Origin: Bacteroidales bacterium | Lineage (GTDB): Bacteria; Bacteroidota; Bacteroidia; Bacteroidales; F082 | DNA: 64,000 bases | Direction: 5' to 3' | Assembly (NCBI GenBank): GCA_030690365.1 | Contig: JAUYGX010000010.1 | Coordinates: 1-64,000, forward strand | In this document: positions 32,047 to 42,857 of the stretch, piece by piece | How positions within the stretch are numbered: position 1 is the first letter of the stretch | Layout of the letters: each line of letters begins with the position of its first letter | The notes under the pieces: model-generated | The model's input: the letters and a program-made list of their open reading frames with translations, nothing else | The model's database searches: none | What the model was told of the DNA's origin: nothing | Program-made: the position numbers and the translations under genes

Positions 32047-32080
32047 GAAGATGTAGAAACATTAATGTTTCTACATCTTC
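32047..32080 (-). terminator. 34-base perfect palindrome, terminator between precursor 1 and lanC
   Basis: GAAGATGTAGAAACATT (32047-32063) is followed directly by its reverse complement, giving a 17-bp stem that could form a hairpin with a small apical loop. On the minus strand five T residues follow. It sits 14 bases beyond the precursor stop and 31 bases before the lanC start, the place where lanthipeptide operons often carry a leaky terminator. Confidence 0.8.
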
Positions 32081-33374: not shown

Positions 33375-34175
33375 TCAGGGTTTTTCAATAAACTTCAACG
33401 GTTTCACCAGACCCGAATAGCCGACGAGTTCCATTTTTACCGAGCCAACGATTACCTCTGATTCACCCATGATAGGCACATGGTTTTCATCATCGCTTAC
33501 CCACACAAACATGGGATATTTGTCTGCAAAAATATCACCGGTGGCCATCATGGGAGCGATTTTGAGACATTTGATTTTTCCCCATTTGGTTTTTAAAATG
33601 CCGGTCCCTTTGAATTTTATGGCAGAAGTATACACCGAATCATCCAAAAAAAAGTTGAGATAAAACATGCTGTCCGCATCAAAATCGCTTACTTTAAAGG
33701 TACGCATGTAATAGATGGCTGAGATTACATCCTGCACATTGGGTGGGATTTTTTTAGTTTTTCTGGTACTTCTCGCCTCCAGTGTTTCCCTGTTGAAAAC
33801 CACCTTGTCGTCTTTTTCAAATTTCCCCTCACGGGTTTCGCGCAAGAAAATATAGGGCAACAGAGTCTGTTGATCGGTATACGACTGGAACTTGTCTCTT
33901 ACCTTAAAAAAGAAGTTGAAAACACCGGTGGAATTCCCCTCACCAATAAAATGAAATACCGTTCTGTTTTCTTCGGTATTCTGTTCTTGCCATTCGTTTA
34001 CCGATAAAAAGGCCTCACCGGCCGTTACATTACCGATGCCGGAATGGTAATACACACGGTATTCAAGCCTTTCGCCGGTTTTAAAGGCGTGGTTTGGAAT
34101 GGGTTCCTGAGCTGATGAAGCTACTGAACTGAGCAGGAGAATCACTCCTAGAATATAATTGACCATCTTCATCAT
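33375..34175 (-). CDS. DUF3108 domain exported protein
   Basis: The 266-residue product has a signal peptide (VNYILGVILLLSSVASSAQ) and then matches the DUF3108 pattern seen across Bacteroidota and Proteobacteria: FKTGERLEYRVYYHSGIGNVTAGEAFLSV near the start, YFLRETREGKFEKDDKVVFN in the middle, and KIAPMMATGDIFADKYPMFVWVSDDENHVPI before the end. Function is not established; an envelope location is inferred. It follows leuS on the same strand after 51 bases and may share its transcript. Confidence 0.88.
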   Translation of the reverse strand: MMKMVNYILGVILLLSSVASSAQEPIPNHAFKTGERLEYRVYYHSGIGNVTAGEAFLSVNEWQEQNTEENRTVFHFIGEGNSTGVFNFFFKVRDKFQSYTDQQTLLPYIFLRETREGKFEKDDKVVFNRETLEARSTRKTKKIPPNVQDVISAIYYMRTFKVSDFDADSMFYLNFFLDDSVYTSAIKFKGTGILKTKWGKIKCLKIAPMMATGDIFADKYPMFVWVSDDENHVPIMGESEVIVGSVKMELVGYSGLVKPLKFIEKP

Positions 34176-34226
34176 GGCACAAACCTATAAAAAGTATGGT
34201 TCTTAAAAGGCATCGGTTGTGGGTAT

Positions 34227-37200
34227 TTATATTACGATATTGATAATTCTCTTGGGCACGACTATTATTTTGCGAAGTGGTTTTCCTTCCATCCACTTTT
34301 TGGCTTCATCGGATTCGAGGGCGGCTTTTTCTATTTCCATTATTTCGAGATTTGCCGGTAACTCCAGCTTAAAGCGCATTTTGCCGTTAAATGAAACGGG
34401 ATACTGAAAGCTGGTTTCCACCAGATATTTTTCATCGTATTGGGGAAAATCAACCGTGCTGATGCTTCCAACATGTCCAAACGACTGCCACAGTTCTTCG
34501 GCCACGTGAGGCGCGTAAGGCTCAATCAATAAAGCCAAAGGCTCCAGAATTTCACGCTTGTGGCAGTTTAGTTCCATGAGCTCGTTTACGCAGATCATAA
34601 AAGCGCTCACACCGGTGTTAAACGAAAATCGTTCTATGTCTTCACGTATTTTTTTTATGGTTTTGTGCAACACTTTCAACTCGTCGTTTGAAGCCGTTTC
34701 ATTGGTGACGATCTGCTGATCATCGTCGTTGAAATACAGCCGCCAGAGCCGTTTCAAAAACCTGAAAACGCCTTCAATACCATTGGTGTCCCAGGGTTTG
34801 TCCTGCTCAAGAGGCCCCAGGAACATTTCATATAAACGCAATGTATCGGCACCATATTTTTCGATGAGCGCATCCGGGTTCTGGACATTGTGCTTTGATT
34901 TGGACATTTTTTCCACTTCCCAGCCACAGATGTATTTTCCCTCCTCCAAAATAAACTTCGCATTTCTGAATTCTTCGCGCCAGGCTTTAAATCCTTCGGT
35001 ATTCAACACATCGTTTTCCACCAGATCAATATCTACATGCAGGCGTTGTGTGTCATAATCCTTGCGCAAGTTGTGCGAAACATATTTGTTGGTTCCCTGT
35101 ATGCGGTATACAAAACTCGATCTTCCCTGAATTTTTCCCTGGTTAATTAGTTTTTTATAAGGCTCAGCTTCGCAAGCCAGGCCCAGATCGAACAAAAATT
35201 TATTCCAGAAACGGGAGTAAATCAAATGACCCGCTGCATGTTCGTCACCACCCACATACAAGTCTACATTGCGCCAGTACTGGTTGGCTTCCGCAGAAAA
35301 ATATTCTTCCTTATTTTGTGGATCCATATAACGCAGATAATAACCGCTCGAACCTGCAAAACCAGGCATGGTGTTGGTTTCCAGAGGATACCCTTCTTTT
35401 GTTTTCCAGTCCGTCAGTGCGGCCAATGGTGGATCTCCCTGCTCAGTAGGTAAATAACTCTCTACCTTGGGAAGTTTTAGAGGCAACTCGCTTTCATCCA
35501 GGGCATAAGGCATTCCATCTTTATAGTAAATTGGAAATGGTTCACCCCAATAGCGTTGGCGACTGAAAATGGCATCACGCAAGCGGAAATTGATGGTTCC
35601 ATAGCCAATGCCCATTTCCTGTATTTTGTTGATGGTCGTGCTGATGGCTTTTTTTACTTGCATCCCGGAGATAAAACCAGAGTTCACCATCACACCTTCC
35701 TTGCTGTCGATGGAATCTTCCCAGGTAGCAGGATCAGTAGGCTCCTCCCCTTCGGCCACCACCACCTGGATGATGGGCAATTTAAAATGCCGGGCAAAGG
35801 CAAAATCGCGGGAATCGTGACCGGGAACCGCCATAATGGCCCCAGTTCCATATCCGGCCAGCACATAGTCTGCAATCCAGATGGGAAGTTTTCCACCCGT
35901 AAGTGGGTTAATGCCATAGGCACCGGTAAATTCACCGGAGATATTTTTTACTTCAGTCATACGTTCCCGTTCCGAGCGATTTTTGGCCCAGGAAACGTAT
36001 GCCTCTACTTGTTCTTTTCTGTCGGGAGTGGTGATTTGCGTCACCAACTCGTGTTCAGGAGCGAGCACCATGAAAGTGGCTCCAAAAAGTGTATCGGGAC
36101 GGGTGGTGAAGACGGTGATCTTTCTTTTGATTTCTTTTGTGACCCCACCTAAATCCTCCCCAAGGGGGAGGACTTTATCCTCTTCTATAAACCAATTATT
36201 CTCGTCAAGTATGTCAGGCATGACATTGTTTGATTTGGAAATCTGCTCCCTCCCCTCCGGGGAGGGGTGGGGTGGGGTAAAAGAATCTCCTTTATCAGTA
36301 GTCTTTACTTCTACTTCTTTTACCCCACCTAAATCCTCCCCAAAGGGGAGGACTTTGGGATCCTCTATAAGTTTGTTGTCTATGTATATTTTAATAGCCT
36401 TTATCACTTCCTCCAAATGATCAATAACATCACTATTTTTAAAACGAATAATTGAATACCCGTTTTCTTCCAGGGTTTCTGTTCTTAGTTTATCTGCTTT
36501 AGCCTGATATTCATGAATTTCACCATCAAGTTCAATAACCGTTTTTTTGCTTAAACAAACAAAATCGACAATGTAAGCTTCTATGGCATGTTGCCTTCTA
36601 ATTCGATATCCGATTCTGTCTTTTCGTAAATTTTCCCACAATAACGCTTCTGCATCAGTGGGATTTTTCCTTAATTCCCTAACGTAATCCTTATTAGCAA
36701 ACCAGGTACCTTTATCTGTTCCATAATAACCAGGCGTATTCTCCGGATCATTTTCATTCTCCACAATATTCTCCTCCCTCCCCAAAGGGGAGTCCCCGAT
36801 GGCTATCGGGAGGGGTGGGGTAAATAACGAATCTCCTTTATCAGTTTTCGTTCGTTCTGCTTCAGTAACCCCACCTAAATCCTCCCCAAAGGGGAGGACT
36901 TTGGGTGATTCGCTTAATTCTTCATGAGAGAACTGCTCCCACCCCTCCGGGGAGGGGTGGGGTGGGGTAATCAGTTCATCTTCTTTATACCTTTCTTCTG
37001 TGGTTTTTGTTCCTTCATTTACCCCACCTAAATCCTCCCCTTTGGGGAGGACTTTAGTGGGTTCATCTCCATCCCACACCTCAAAATCTACACTCGCTCC
37101 TTCGCTCCTGCCAATCCAGTTGCGCTGCATTTCTTTGATGGGTTCTGACCAGTCCACCGTTTCCAGACCATCGAGTAGCCGTTGTGCATAGGCTGTAATA

Positions 37201-37949
37201 CGCAACGACCACTGCATCATGAGTTTTTTTTCAACAGGATGTCCACCCCGCTCAGAAAGGCCTTCCTTGACTTCGTCGTTGGCCAAAACTGTACCCAATT
37301 CAGGACACCAATTGACCATGGTTTCTGAAAGGTAGGCCAGGCGATAATGCATCAGGATTTGCTGCTGTTCTTTTTCAGAAGCTTTTTTCCAAAACTCAGC
37401 TGTAAAAACCTCTTCATATGAACTGGCTGCCTCAATAGATGAGTTCCCATTTTCCTCAAATTGAGTAATCAGTGTGCTTATGTCTTCCGCTTTGTCGGTT
37501 TTTTTGTTGTACCACGAATGAAAAAGGCGGATAAAGGTCCATTGGGTCCATTTGTAGTAATCAGGATCGGAAGTGCGTACTTCACGGTCCCAATCGAATG
37601 AAAAACCTATTTTGTCCAGTTGCTCGCGGTAACGAAGGATGTTTTTTTCTGTGGTTATTTCAGGATGAGTACCGGTTTGAATGGCGTACTGCTCAGCAGG
37701 AAGTCCGTAAGCATCGTAGCCCATGGGATGCAACACATTAAAACCTTGATGACGTTTATAACGGGAGTAAATATCGGAGGCAATATATCCCAATGGGTGT
37801 CCAACATGTAAACCCGCTCCCGAAGGATAAGGAAACATATCCAACACATAATATTTAGGCTTATCGTGATTGATGTCAGCCTTAAAAGTTTTATGTTCAC
37901 TCCAGTAATTCTGCCATTTCTTTTCAATGCGGTCAAAATCGTATCCCAT
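34227..37949 (-). CDS. leuS: Leucyl-tRNA synthetase with a large in-frame insertion carrying an endonuclease domain
   Basis: Charges tRNA(Leu) with leucine and hydrolyses mischarged tRNA. The class I synthetase parts are complete: HIGH-type motif in [16 protein letters not shown] (residues 40-55), editing-domain segments TTRPDTLFG and [20 protein letters not shown] in EKMSKSKHN, and the anticodon-binding C-terminus. Total length is 1240 residues; Bacteroidota LeuRS are usually about 930-950. Residues about 299-603 are extra. They fall right after [19 protein letters not shown], at the start of the CP1 editing domain, and LeuRS resumes with [13 protein letters not shown], so the break is in one beta-hairpin loop. 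Without the insert about 935 residues remain. The frame is maintained throughout with no stop, so the whole fusion is probably translated. Confidence 0.95.
36142..36176 (-). repeat. A repeat, copy 4 of 4 in protein order
   Basis: Encodes [11 protein letters not shown](V), residues 592-603 of LeuRS, and is the last repeat before the synthetase resumes. The central palindrome here is CCTCCCC-TTG-GGGGAGG. Confidence 0.8.
36243..36278 (-). repeat. B repeat, copy 3 of 3 in protein order
   Basis: Encodes [12 protein letters not shown] (residues 558-569). CCCTCCCC and GGGGAGGG pair around a GGA loop. Confidence 0.8.
36322..36356 (-). repeat. A repeat, copy 3 of 4 in protein order
   Basis: Encodes [11 protein letters not shown](V) (residues 532-543), directly after the nuclease domain. 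It differs from the copy at 36868-36902 at no base I can find. Confidence 0.8.
36370..36704 (-). other. DUF559 endonuclease-like domain within the leuS insertion
   Basis: Residues about 416-526 of the LeuRS frame match the DUF559 family, relatives of the very-short-patch repair (Vsr) fold: [60 protein letters not shown], and [20 protein letters not shown]. The Asp of YIVDFVC and the Glu and Asp of VIELDGEIH are positioned like a PD-(D/E)xK catalytic site, and all are intact, so nuclease activity is plausible. It has no start codon of its own and can only be made as part of LeuRS unless initiated internally. Confidence 0.85.
36771..36821 (-). repeat. B repeat variant (51 bases), copy 2 of 3 in protein order
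   Basis: Encodes [17 protein letters not shown] (residues 377-393). It keeps the TPP start and G-R-E-E end of the B unit but has a second palindrome (CCCGATAGCCATCGGG) in the middle, and its outer stem uses CTCCCC/GGGGAG. Confidence 0.75.
36868..36902 (-). repeat. A repeat, copy 2 of 4 in protein order
   Basis: Encodes [11 protein letters not shown](V) (residues 350-361), with palindrome CCTCCCC-TTT/AAA-GGGGAGG. Confidence 0.8.
36933..36968 (-). repeat. B repeat, copy 1 of 3 in protein order
   Basis: Encodes [12 protein letters not shown] (residues 328-339). One base in the stem differs from the copy at 36243-36278, giving Trp in place of Arg. Confidence 0.8.
37021..37055 (-). repeat. A repeat, copy 1 of 4 in protein order
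   Basis: Encodes [11 protein letters not shown](V) (residues 299-310) and marks where the LeuRS sequence is left. The loop of the palindrome is inverted relative to the other A copies (Lys codon AAA instead of Phe TTT). Confidence 0.8.
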
Positions 37950-37973
37950 TACAATATCTATTTATCTTTTCAA

Positions 37974-38669
37974 TTATTTACTTTTTGCCAATTGCTCGAA
38001 ACTCAGGTCCATGAGTTCAAATTTTTCCCAGTGTTGGTAATCAAAATGCCACCATTCGCTTGGATAAACAGTGAATCCATGGTCGTTCATCACCCGAATC
38101 AACAAGGCTCTGTTTACTTTTATGCGCTCCAGAAGATTTGAAAAATCTGGTGCTGCCGTATCGCTAAAACTATCGTATCCGGTTGGCATTTCCAATTCCT
38201 TACCTGTGGTCAGATTGATCAGACTTACATCCACAGCGGCACCCCGGTTGTGACGTGATCCGGAAAACGGAGAAGCCACGAATGTGGTATCGTGATAAAC
38301 CTCGTAGAACTTCACGGTAGCCGCATATGGACGGTATGCATCATAAACGAGTAAACCAAGGTTTTGTTTTGAAAGGCTTTCCTGAACATTATTTAATGCT
38401 TCGGCAACAGGTCTCCTTACAAATGCTTTGGGTTGGGTATAAATTTGCTCTCCGGTAAAATTATTTGCCGTAGTATATCTGATATCCAGTTTAATACCCG
38501 GTACATATTGTTCAATATCCACCAGCTCATCCTCCGGATTCTGATTTACAGCCTCCTGATATGCATCTACAGAGCGCATAACTTTAATATGCTTCTCATA
38601 AGGAGTTGCAACCTGCGCAATTATGATTGCAGGAAAAACCGTGACCAGTAAAATTAGAAACCATTTCAT
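37974..38669 (-). CDS. D-alanyl-D-alanine dipeptidase, VanX/DdpX type (M15D)
   Basis: Starting at 38669 the protein has 231 residues with a signal peptide (MKWFLILLVTVFPAIIIAQ), so it works outside the cytoplasm. Zinc-site motifs of the M15D family are present: SRHNRGAAVDVSLI (SxHxxGxAxD) and EWWHFDYQ (ExxH), with DIRYTTANNFTGEQIY and YDAYRPYAATVKFY as family markers. VanX-type enzymes cleave D-Ala-D-Ala; outside vancomycin-resistance clusters they serve in peptidoglycan recycling or peptide use. No van genes are near it, so no resistance role is implied. It lies 24 bases upstream of leuS. Confidence 0.92.
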   Translation of the reverse strand: MKWFLILLVTVFPAIIIAQVATPYEKHIKVMRSVDAYQEAVNQNPEDELVDIEQYVPGIKLDIRYTTANNFTGEQIYTQPKAFVRRPVAEALNNVQESLSKQNLGLLVYDAYRPYAATVKFYEVYHDTTFVASPFSGSRHNRGAAVDVSLINLTTGKELEMPTGYDSFSDTAAPDFSNLLERIKVNRALLIRVMNDHGFTVYPSEWWHFDYQHWEKFELMDLSFEQLAKSK

Positions 38670-42715: not shown

Positions 42716-42740
42716 TTAAGGTGATTGATTTTTATAAACC

Positions 42741-42775
42741 AGCCCGTTTTCGCAACATAGTTGCGAAAACGGGCT
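42741..42775. terminator. Long perfect hairpin between yceI-like gene and methyltransferase
   Basis: AGCCCGTTTTCGCAAC (42741-42756) pairs perfectly with GTTGCGAAAACGGGCT (42760-42775) around a 3-base loop, a 16-bp stem. The minus strand after it reads GGTTTATAAAAATC, not a full T-run. It sits 82 bases past the YceI stop and 25 bases before the methyltransferase ATG, so it may act as terminator or leader structure. Confidence 0.55.
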
Positions 42776-42857
42776 GCAATAGTTTTAAAGATTTGCATGG
42801 GTTCCATCGCAAAACGGTTTCTTTGAGGCAATTTTTGGCGATTCCATGTTCAATCTT

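Follow-up and report, generated by a model that had tools for sequence, protein, structure and literature searches.

A candidate homing-type element within the reading frame of leucyl-tRNA synthetase: a DUF559 nuclease between hairpin repeats

Homing elements are usually found where the host gene is spared, within introns or inteins or as free genes. REPIN/RAYT systems combine an HUH (Y1) transposase with inverted pairs of tagged hairpins, and the palindromic elements of Rickettsia carry, to our knowledge, no nuclease. Passages of PMC3943268 describe homing nucleases in introns, in inteins or as free genes and present one of them, I-Bth0305I, as a multi-domain protein, and part of PMC9403480 assigns a DUF559 gene of Thermosynechococcus to the EDxHD family. 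According to sections of PMC10969869, Rickettsia palindromic elements are stretches of palindromic DNA of about 150 bp that lie in frame in unrelated genes, and tagged hairpins are given as REP features in a portion of PMC3733652.

In the window, the whole 64-kb stretch of DNA that was analysed, leuS occupies positions 34227-37949 of the minus strand as one uninterrupted frame of 1240 codons whose product matches the leucyl-tRNA synthetase (LeuRS) model TIGR00396 (E 6e-275). Residues 299-603 (36141-37055, minus strand) constitute an in-frame insert of 305 codons, or 915 bp, in a loop of the CP1 editing domain; it is missing at the equivalent site of other leuS genes, the LeuRS editing domain (PF13603; 35625-36131, minus strand) resumes directly after it, and 935 residues are left when it is subtracted. 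Pfam recognizes LeuRS editing, class I synthetase and anticodon domains together with a DUF559 (PF04480) nuclease domain at residues 420-521 (36387-36692, minus strand; E 1e-30), which lies between an N-terminal linker (36693-37055) and a C-terminal linker (36141-36386), both on the minus strand, largely hairpin-encoded and mostly disordered by prediction. The insert also matches MTES_1575 and, weakly, DUF2726, only DUF559 exceeding the Pfam cut-off, and its domain matches include neither a DNA-binding domain beside DUF559 nor a transposase domain. In an AlphaFold model of the CP1 region the editing fold is predicted to persist despite the insert (comparison with 1obh, the Thermus LeuRS: Z 21.8, with an rmsd of 1.6 for 160 residues), strands immediately flank the insert on both sides, the nuclease is folded, and pLDDT falls below 50 in the linkers at model residues 89-202 and almost all of 320-400. 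The window genome, which is 99.6% complete, has one strong LeuRS editing-domain match, that of leuS with its insert (a second PF13603 match is weak and lies within an 881-codon frame), and we therefore infer that the insert-bearing protein must charge tRNA-Leu.

A scan of the window returned 13 GC-rich hairpins, 6 of them inside the 0.9-kb stretch of the insert. Two features of the sequence-only reading are borne out, namely that leuS has some 305 extra codons in a CP1 loop with an open frame and a remainder of about 935 residues, and that the insert is made of palindromic units and a whole DUF559-type nuclease. The insert hairpins have the form CCTCCCC-NNN-GGGGAGG with a G-rich tag, and their orientations alternate around the nuclease. 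Hairpins of an A type, encoding the peptide KVLPxGEDLGGV, lie at 37033-37051, 36880-36898, 36334-36352 and 36154-36172; those of a B type, encoding TPPHPSPEG, lie at 36938-36961 and 36248-36266; and a shorter hairpin adjoins the nuclease at 36777-36792. The four copies of the main unit are spaced by 180, 546 and 153 bases, each divisible by three, and an 18-base part of this unit is found in four exact copies plus one with 3 mismatches, as compared to a mean of 0.04 at that tolerance in shuffled windows. One arm of the shorter hairpin puts a Shine-Dalgarno-like GGAGG ahead of a GTG codon, residue 396 (36762-36779), where translation of the nuclease might begin internally. No Rfam family scored above its gathering threshold in 34000-38200; sub-threshold matches of the insert to four microRNA models were far below gathering and were taken as chance hairpin matches. 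Elsewhere in the window there is a perfect 34-base palindrome at 32047-32080 and a 37-base hairpin at 42740-42776.

A Foldseek search with the nuclease domain model (pLDDT 90.6) ranked a Neisseria endonuclease-like protein first and I-Bth0305I second, with Vsr as a weaker match, and the sequence profile also matches both of the leading proteins. For I-Bth0305I (3r3p) the profile E-value by hmmsearch was 8.7e-6 and the Foldseek E-value 1.1e-4, with a TM score of 0.76 by target length. The insert nuclease is, as judged by profile and modelled fold, a predicted relative of the EDxHD/Vsr-like homing endonucleases. All 101 in-frame copies share an E, a D, an E-x-D and one more D without exception, and 100 of them have an H; the likely catalytic residues have thus been kept. 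For the nuclease, dN/dS lay between 0.03 and 0.25 wherever dS was finite, which was the case for 13 of 15 pairs, several being close to saturation (the G000 domain is shifted by one residue in this comparison). Given the invariant residues and the low dN/dS, the putative nuclease activity appears to be under selection. In-frame copies often lack a methionine in the 60 residues upstream of the domain (46 of 101, versus 3 of 33 free copies), so that many of the nucleases would be made only along with the host protein, unless translation begins at GTG or TTG.

Twenty-one leuS genes, the window's and 20 others, were aligned from 61 genomes searched. DUF559 is present at the window's CP1 site in 8 of the 21 (one partly N-masked); 2 contain the hairpin-encoded peptide alone, 1 contains this peptide with a C-terminal nuclease fragment, and the other 10 show no trace of peptide or nuclease. 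Patchiness of this kind (8 filled sites, 3 remnants, 10 empty) speaks against a domain fixed in all close relatives, an outcome by which the sequence-only reading would have fallen. At the leuS site of the congener G002 only a scar is found. LeuRS has further sites as well. Near window residue 950, four of the 21 genes, all from the window's family (G033, G031, G008 and G030), carry a degenerate DUF559-like domain, which at L054, L055, L056 and L057 has no E-x-D-G motif, and at a third site, after the editing domain, a complete DUF559 insert is seen in L146 and L189.

As a correction to the sequence-only reading, such inserts are not specific to leuS. DUF559 also occurs in frame with many unrelated proteins: 23 Pfam-defined families in all, internally in 19 and at one end of the frame in 4 (PurL, phosphoglycerate mutase, GNAT and alpha-2-macroglobulin). 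Of 295 genomes in the order, 124 encode DUF559; the best 150 matches include 27 in frames longer than 250 codons. The hosts of these 27 are LeuRS (10, all at the CP1 loop), IleRS (4, in one loop), HsdR (3), type ISP enzymes (2), N6/N4 methylases (2) and one each of ValRS, HsdM, Eco57I, an epimerase, DegT and GNAT; LeuRS, IleRS and HsdR were named mostly by conserved motifs, with one per kind named by Pfam. Across the phylum, DUF559 occurs in 222 of the 395 genomes sampled, and long frames account for 51 of the best 150 matches. The 20 of these 51 loci that were fetched, long contigs being preferred, comprise MetH (5), Eco57I-type enzymes (3), LeuRS, RecG, methylmalonyl-CoA mutase and HsdR (2 each), a methylase, a type ISP enzyme and two loci without host identification, and 9 of the 20 come from eight genomes that are each a single contig of between 2.2 and 4.3 Mb. 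Scanning of named genomes, a sample biased by its LeuRS/IleRS-type query, placed 73 of 82 domains in long frames among the best 80 loci of 551 and added as hosts methylmalonyl-CoA mutase, MetH, RecG, UvrA, PurL, acetyl-CoA synthetase, Tgt, RecJ, CoA transferase, Mfd, alpha-2-macroglobulin and phosphoglycerate mutase. Outside of Bacteroidota there is a LeuRS case in a Paceibacterota record and an Mfd case in a Rickettsiales record; in the latter (L183, 4609-8988) DUF559 is situated between arrays of hairpin-encoded peptide, a possible link to the Rickettsia palindromic elements. Common hosts include restriction-modification genes, namely those for HsdR, HsdM, methylases, Eco57I and type ISP enzymes (L007, L092, L094, L104, L106, L107, L109, L267), and free DUF559 genes sometimes lie 0.6 to 4.5 kb from a closely similar partner (L111, L112, L115, L116). 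The window genome itself has a second DUF559, in frame inside hsdR and between tandem hairpins that differ in sequence from those of leuS.

Within a host family the element recurs at the same site. By reading of the individual genes, the site was repeated in 4 of 4 IleRS, 5 of 5 RecG, 9 of 9 methylmalonyl-CoA mutase and 6 of 7 MetH copies, LeuRS with its two rare additional sites being the exception to the one-site pattern. Close HsdR homologues that are empty have a loop of 10-11 residues where filled genes hold the element, and of three filled HsdR genes two have a common nuclease lineage and the third a different one. A target-site duplication could not be defined in this filled/empty comparison, in which the loop is partly replaced rather than cleanly split.

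Hairpins are likewise a recurrent feature of the element's ends. Within 400 bp, the 88 long-frame copies with full flanks average 0.89 hairpins on the left and 1.00 on the right, as compared to 0.069 for a background of 2135 windows from the same loci. Hairpins flank 57 of these 88 on both sides and 74 on one side or both; 14 have none, so that 31 miss them on at least one side. Among 35 short-frame copies, 15 are flanked on both sides and 25 on one side or both. These counts dropped L128, L133 and L150 (on contigs shared with L099, L102 and L096) and domains below 75 bits, and 7 of 130 rows had incomplete flanks. In the window genome, 3 of 8 A-type hairpins are away from DUF559. Among 20 loci fetched for hairpins outside leuS, one was an hsdR end and one (L227) had a 400-codon frame through the hairpin; the idea that hairpins remote from DUF559 also sit in genes was set aside, the longest frame through the hairpin being below 200 codons in 18 of the 20. 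Hairpins are present in 11 of 12 genomes with DUF559 versus 1 of 9 without, a partly circular association since the patterns were derived from the DUF559 loci of these same genomes (G002, G003, G005 and G013, which had no family-level DUF559 search, are omitted). A reversed control pattern gave 0 hits in all 25 genomes searched.

Several observations bear on mobility. A unit of 538 bp, bounded by CCCCTCCNNNGGAGGGG, is common to an hsdR and a methylase copy of G084, which are 75% identical over it; elsewhere the two loci match only in short hairpin-like stretches. This genome has just four CCCCTCCNNNGGAGGGG hairpins, all of them ends of the two element copies; both such hairpins of G288 are element ends, and all five in G000 lie in the hsdR element, one of them probably counted twice at a contig break. 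At 75% identity, the move between genes in G084 is not recent. The pS values of nuclease and host were 0.183 and 0.486 for G000-G001, 0.166 and 0.482 for G000-G004, 0.051 and 0.504 for the LeuRS of two Dokdonia species, and 0.241 and 0.634 for RecJ, with no host window as low as the nuclease in any of them. Thus, within the window's genus, the nuclease is younger than the leuS around it. In other pairs the values are equal (L101-L102, 0.402 and 0.408; L149-L155, 0.508 and 0.479). Overall, among 27 usable pairs (host pS up to 0.65), the nuclease was younger than every host window in 6, one of them, G001-G004, marginal, older in 5 and within range in 16; the windows overlap and pairs share genomes, so these tests are not independent. 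The 16 pairs without an age difference indicate that many inserts are inherited along with the host gene. Divergent nucleases occupy one and the same LeuRS loop in Aequorivita, those of L149 and L155 showing 59% identity to the L160 nuclease, compared with 73-82% between the hosts. Taken together, the two-gene unit of G084, the younger nuclease within the genus and the divergent Aequorivita nucleases at one loop support mobility.

A tree of the nuclease (134 rows, 100 columns, many unresolved forks) required 36 changes of host label, with a minimum of 24 and 69.8 after shuffling. The LeuRS label alone required 14 changes (shuffled mean 43.9), only 2 of them forced by well-supported branches. 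Tree and residue counts dropped L128, L133, L150 and domains below 80 bits. The copies thus cluster by host beyond chance, as site-specific lineages would, and repeated entry at the LeuRS site is suggested. An AU test with 30 of the 58 LeuRS rows against 49 others (37 other in-frame and 12 free copies; six rows of an HsdR-type branch omitted) did not reject a single clade of LeuRS-site nucleases (p 0.101).

We consider it likely that the insert is a selfish, homing-type mobile element that stays in its host protein instead of splicing. The unit would consist of a small EDxHD/Vsr-like DUF559 nuclease between hairpin repeats, placed in frame within an exposed loop of a conserved protein and translated within it, with removal never apparent. 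By analogy, the insert would work like a homing element: the recurrent sites, the decoupling of element and host ages in some pairs and the nuclease family lead us to infer that the nuclease cleaves alleles whose site lacks the element, and that the filled allele then serves as the repair template, so that the element is copied into the cut one. The hairpins would delimit the unit and might also assist it in reaching new genes. Selection would purge insertions that break the frame or that the protein fold cannot bear, full-size translation being presumed for those that persist, and loss of the element would leave hairpin-encoded scars.

An unlikely alternative is that the hairpins themselves are the mobile units, REPIN-like and driven by another enzyme or by slippage during repair, with DUF559 as cargo or as a dedicated processing nuclease; spread would occur by transposition to new loci, and repeated sites would just mirror where proteins tolerate inserts. 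The short-frame DUF559 genes that also lie between hairpins, the arrays of hairpin units, the A-type hairpins of the window genome that are away from DUF559 and the presence of the G084 unit in two unrelated genes would all fit such a process. The insert, however, has no transposase domain, the hairpins searched in G084 (4 of 4) and G288 (2 of 2) occur only as element ends, and the share of long-frame order copies at one LeuRS loop (10 of 27) is a tighter focus than tolerance alone would predict. It is improbable, by a wider measure, that the nuclease is a domesticated accessory domain retained for its usefulness to the host protein or the cell. Purifying selection, the 16 of 27 pairs of matching age and the degenerate DUF559-like domain at the second LeuRS site in several family members are compatible with domestication, but the hosts have no common function, presence is patchy even inside a genus, and in 11 of 27 pairs the nuclease is not of the same age as its host.

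The chance that the insert is an intein or intron remnant, spliced now or formerly, seems very small to us. Conserved host genes and a homing-type nuclease are what such a remnant would show; against it, no Pfam or NCBIfam intein model matches, the insert starts with K and ends with V before T, lacking His-Asn, the frame is fully open, and no Rfam family exceeds its gathering score, which upholds the sequence-only reading on both the intein and the intron. Smaller still, and close to negligible, is the chance of an assembly or binning artefact. The window genome comprises 155 contigs, two of which divide hsdR between them at the hairpin repeats, but the same insert is found in congeners and the same architecture recurs in named isolates and in single-contig genomes, making the false join weighed by the sequence-only reading unlikely.

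The homing-type reading has wider implications. We see an even chance that the inserts are a distinct class of mobile DNA, widespread in Bacteroidota and present as well in records from Paceibacterota, Zambryskibacteria and Rickettsiales, in which unspliced in-frame homing cassettes of DUF559 with hairpin ends are permanently housed inside essential proteins and rely on tolerant loops instead of splicing. If the reading is true, homing can proceed without splicing, the DUF559 family gains a likely role, a possible step in the origin of inteins becomes testable, and oversized synthetases and repair proteins in annotations are accounted for. We found no description of such inserts in the open-access full-text literature searched.

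Set against known systems, the insert does not fit four classes. It has no detected splicing domain, starting nucleophile or terminal His-Asn as an intein would, neither the known RNA fold nor the interrupted frame of a group I/II intron, not the size of a Rickettsia palindromic element, and not the RAYT transposase. With REP/REPIN sequences and their RAYT it shares tagged hairpins in inverted pairs and an adjoining nuclease gene, and differs in that DUF559 replaces the HUH transposase and in lying within coding sequence. With Rickettsia palindromic elements, as they are described, it shares palindromic in-frame DNA in unrelated genes, but it has 915 bp and a nuclease compared to about 150 bp in the relevant sections of PMC10969869. 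Like inteins with a homing nuclease, it is in frame, patchy and found in conserved genes as site-specific lineages; unlike them, it apparently remains in the protein. Finally, it resembles the EDxHD homing endonucleases and I-Bth0305I in nuclease fold and profile, in mobility within conserved genes and in a spread that seems independent of the host gene. I-Bth0305I is multi-domain as portrayed in passages of PMC3943268, whereas DUF559 in the insert stands without a detected DNA-binding partner. Relative to the EDxHD enzymes covered by those same passages (PMC3943268), the leuS-type nuclease would be distinguished by its hairpin ends and by being translated as an unspliced part of its host protein.
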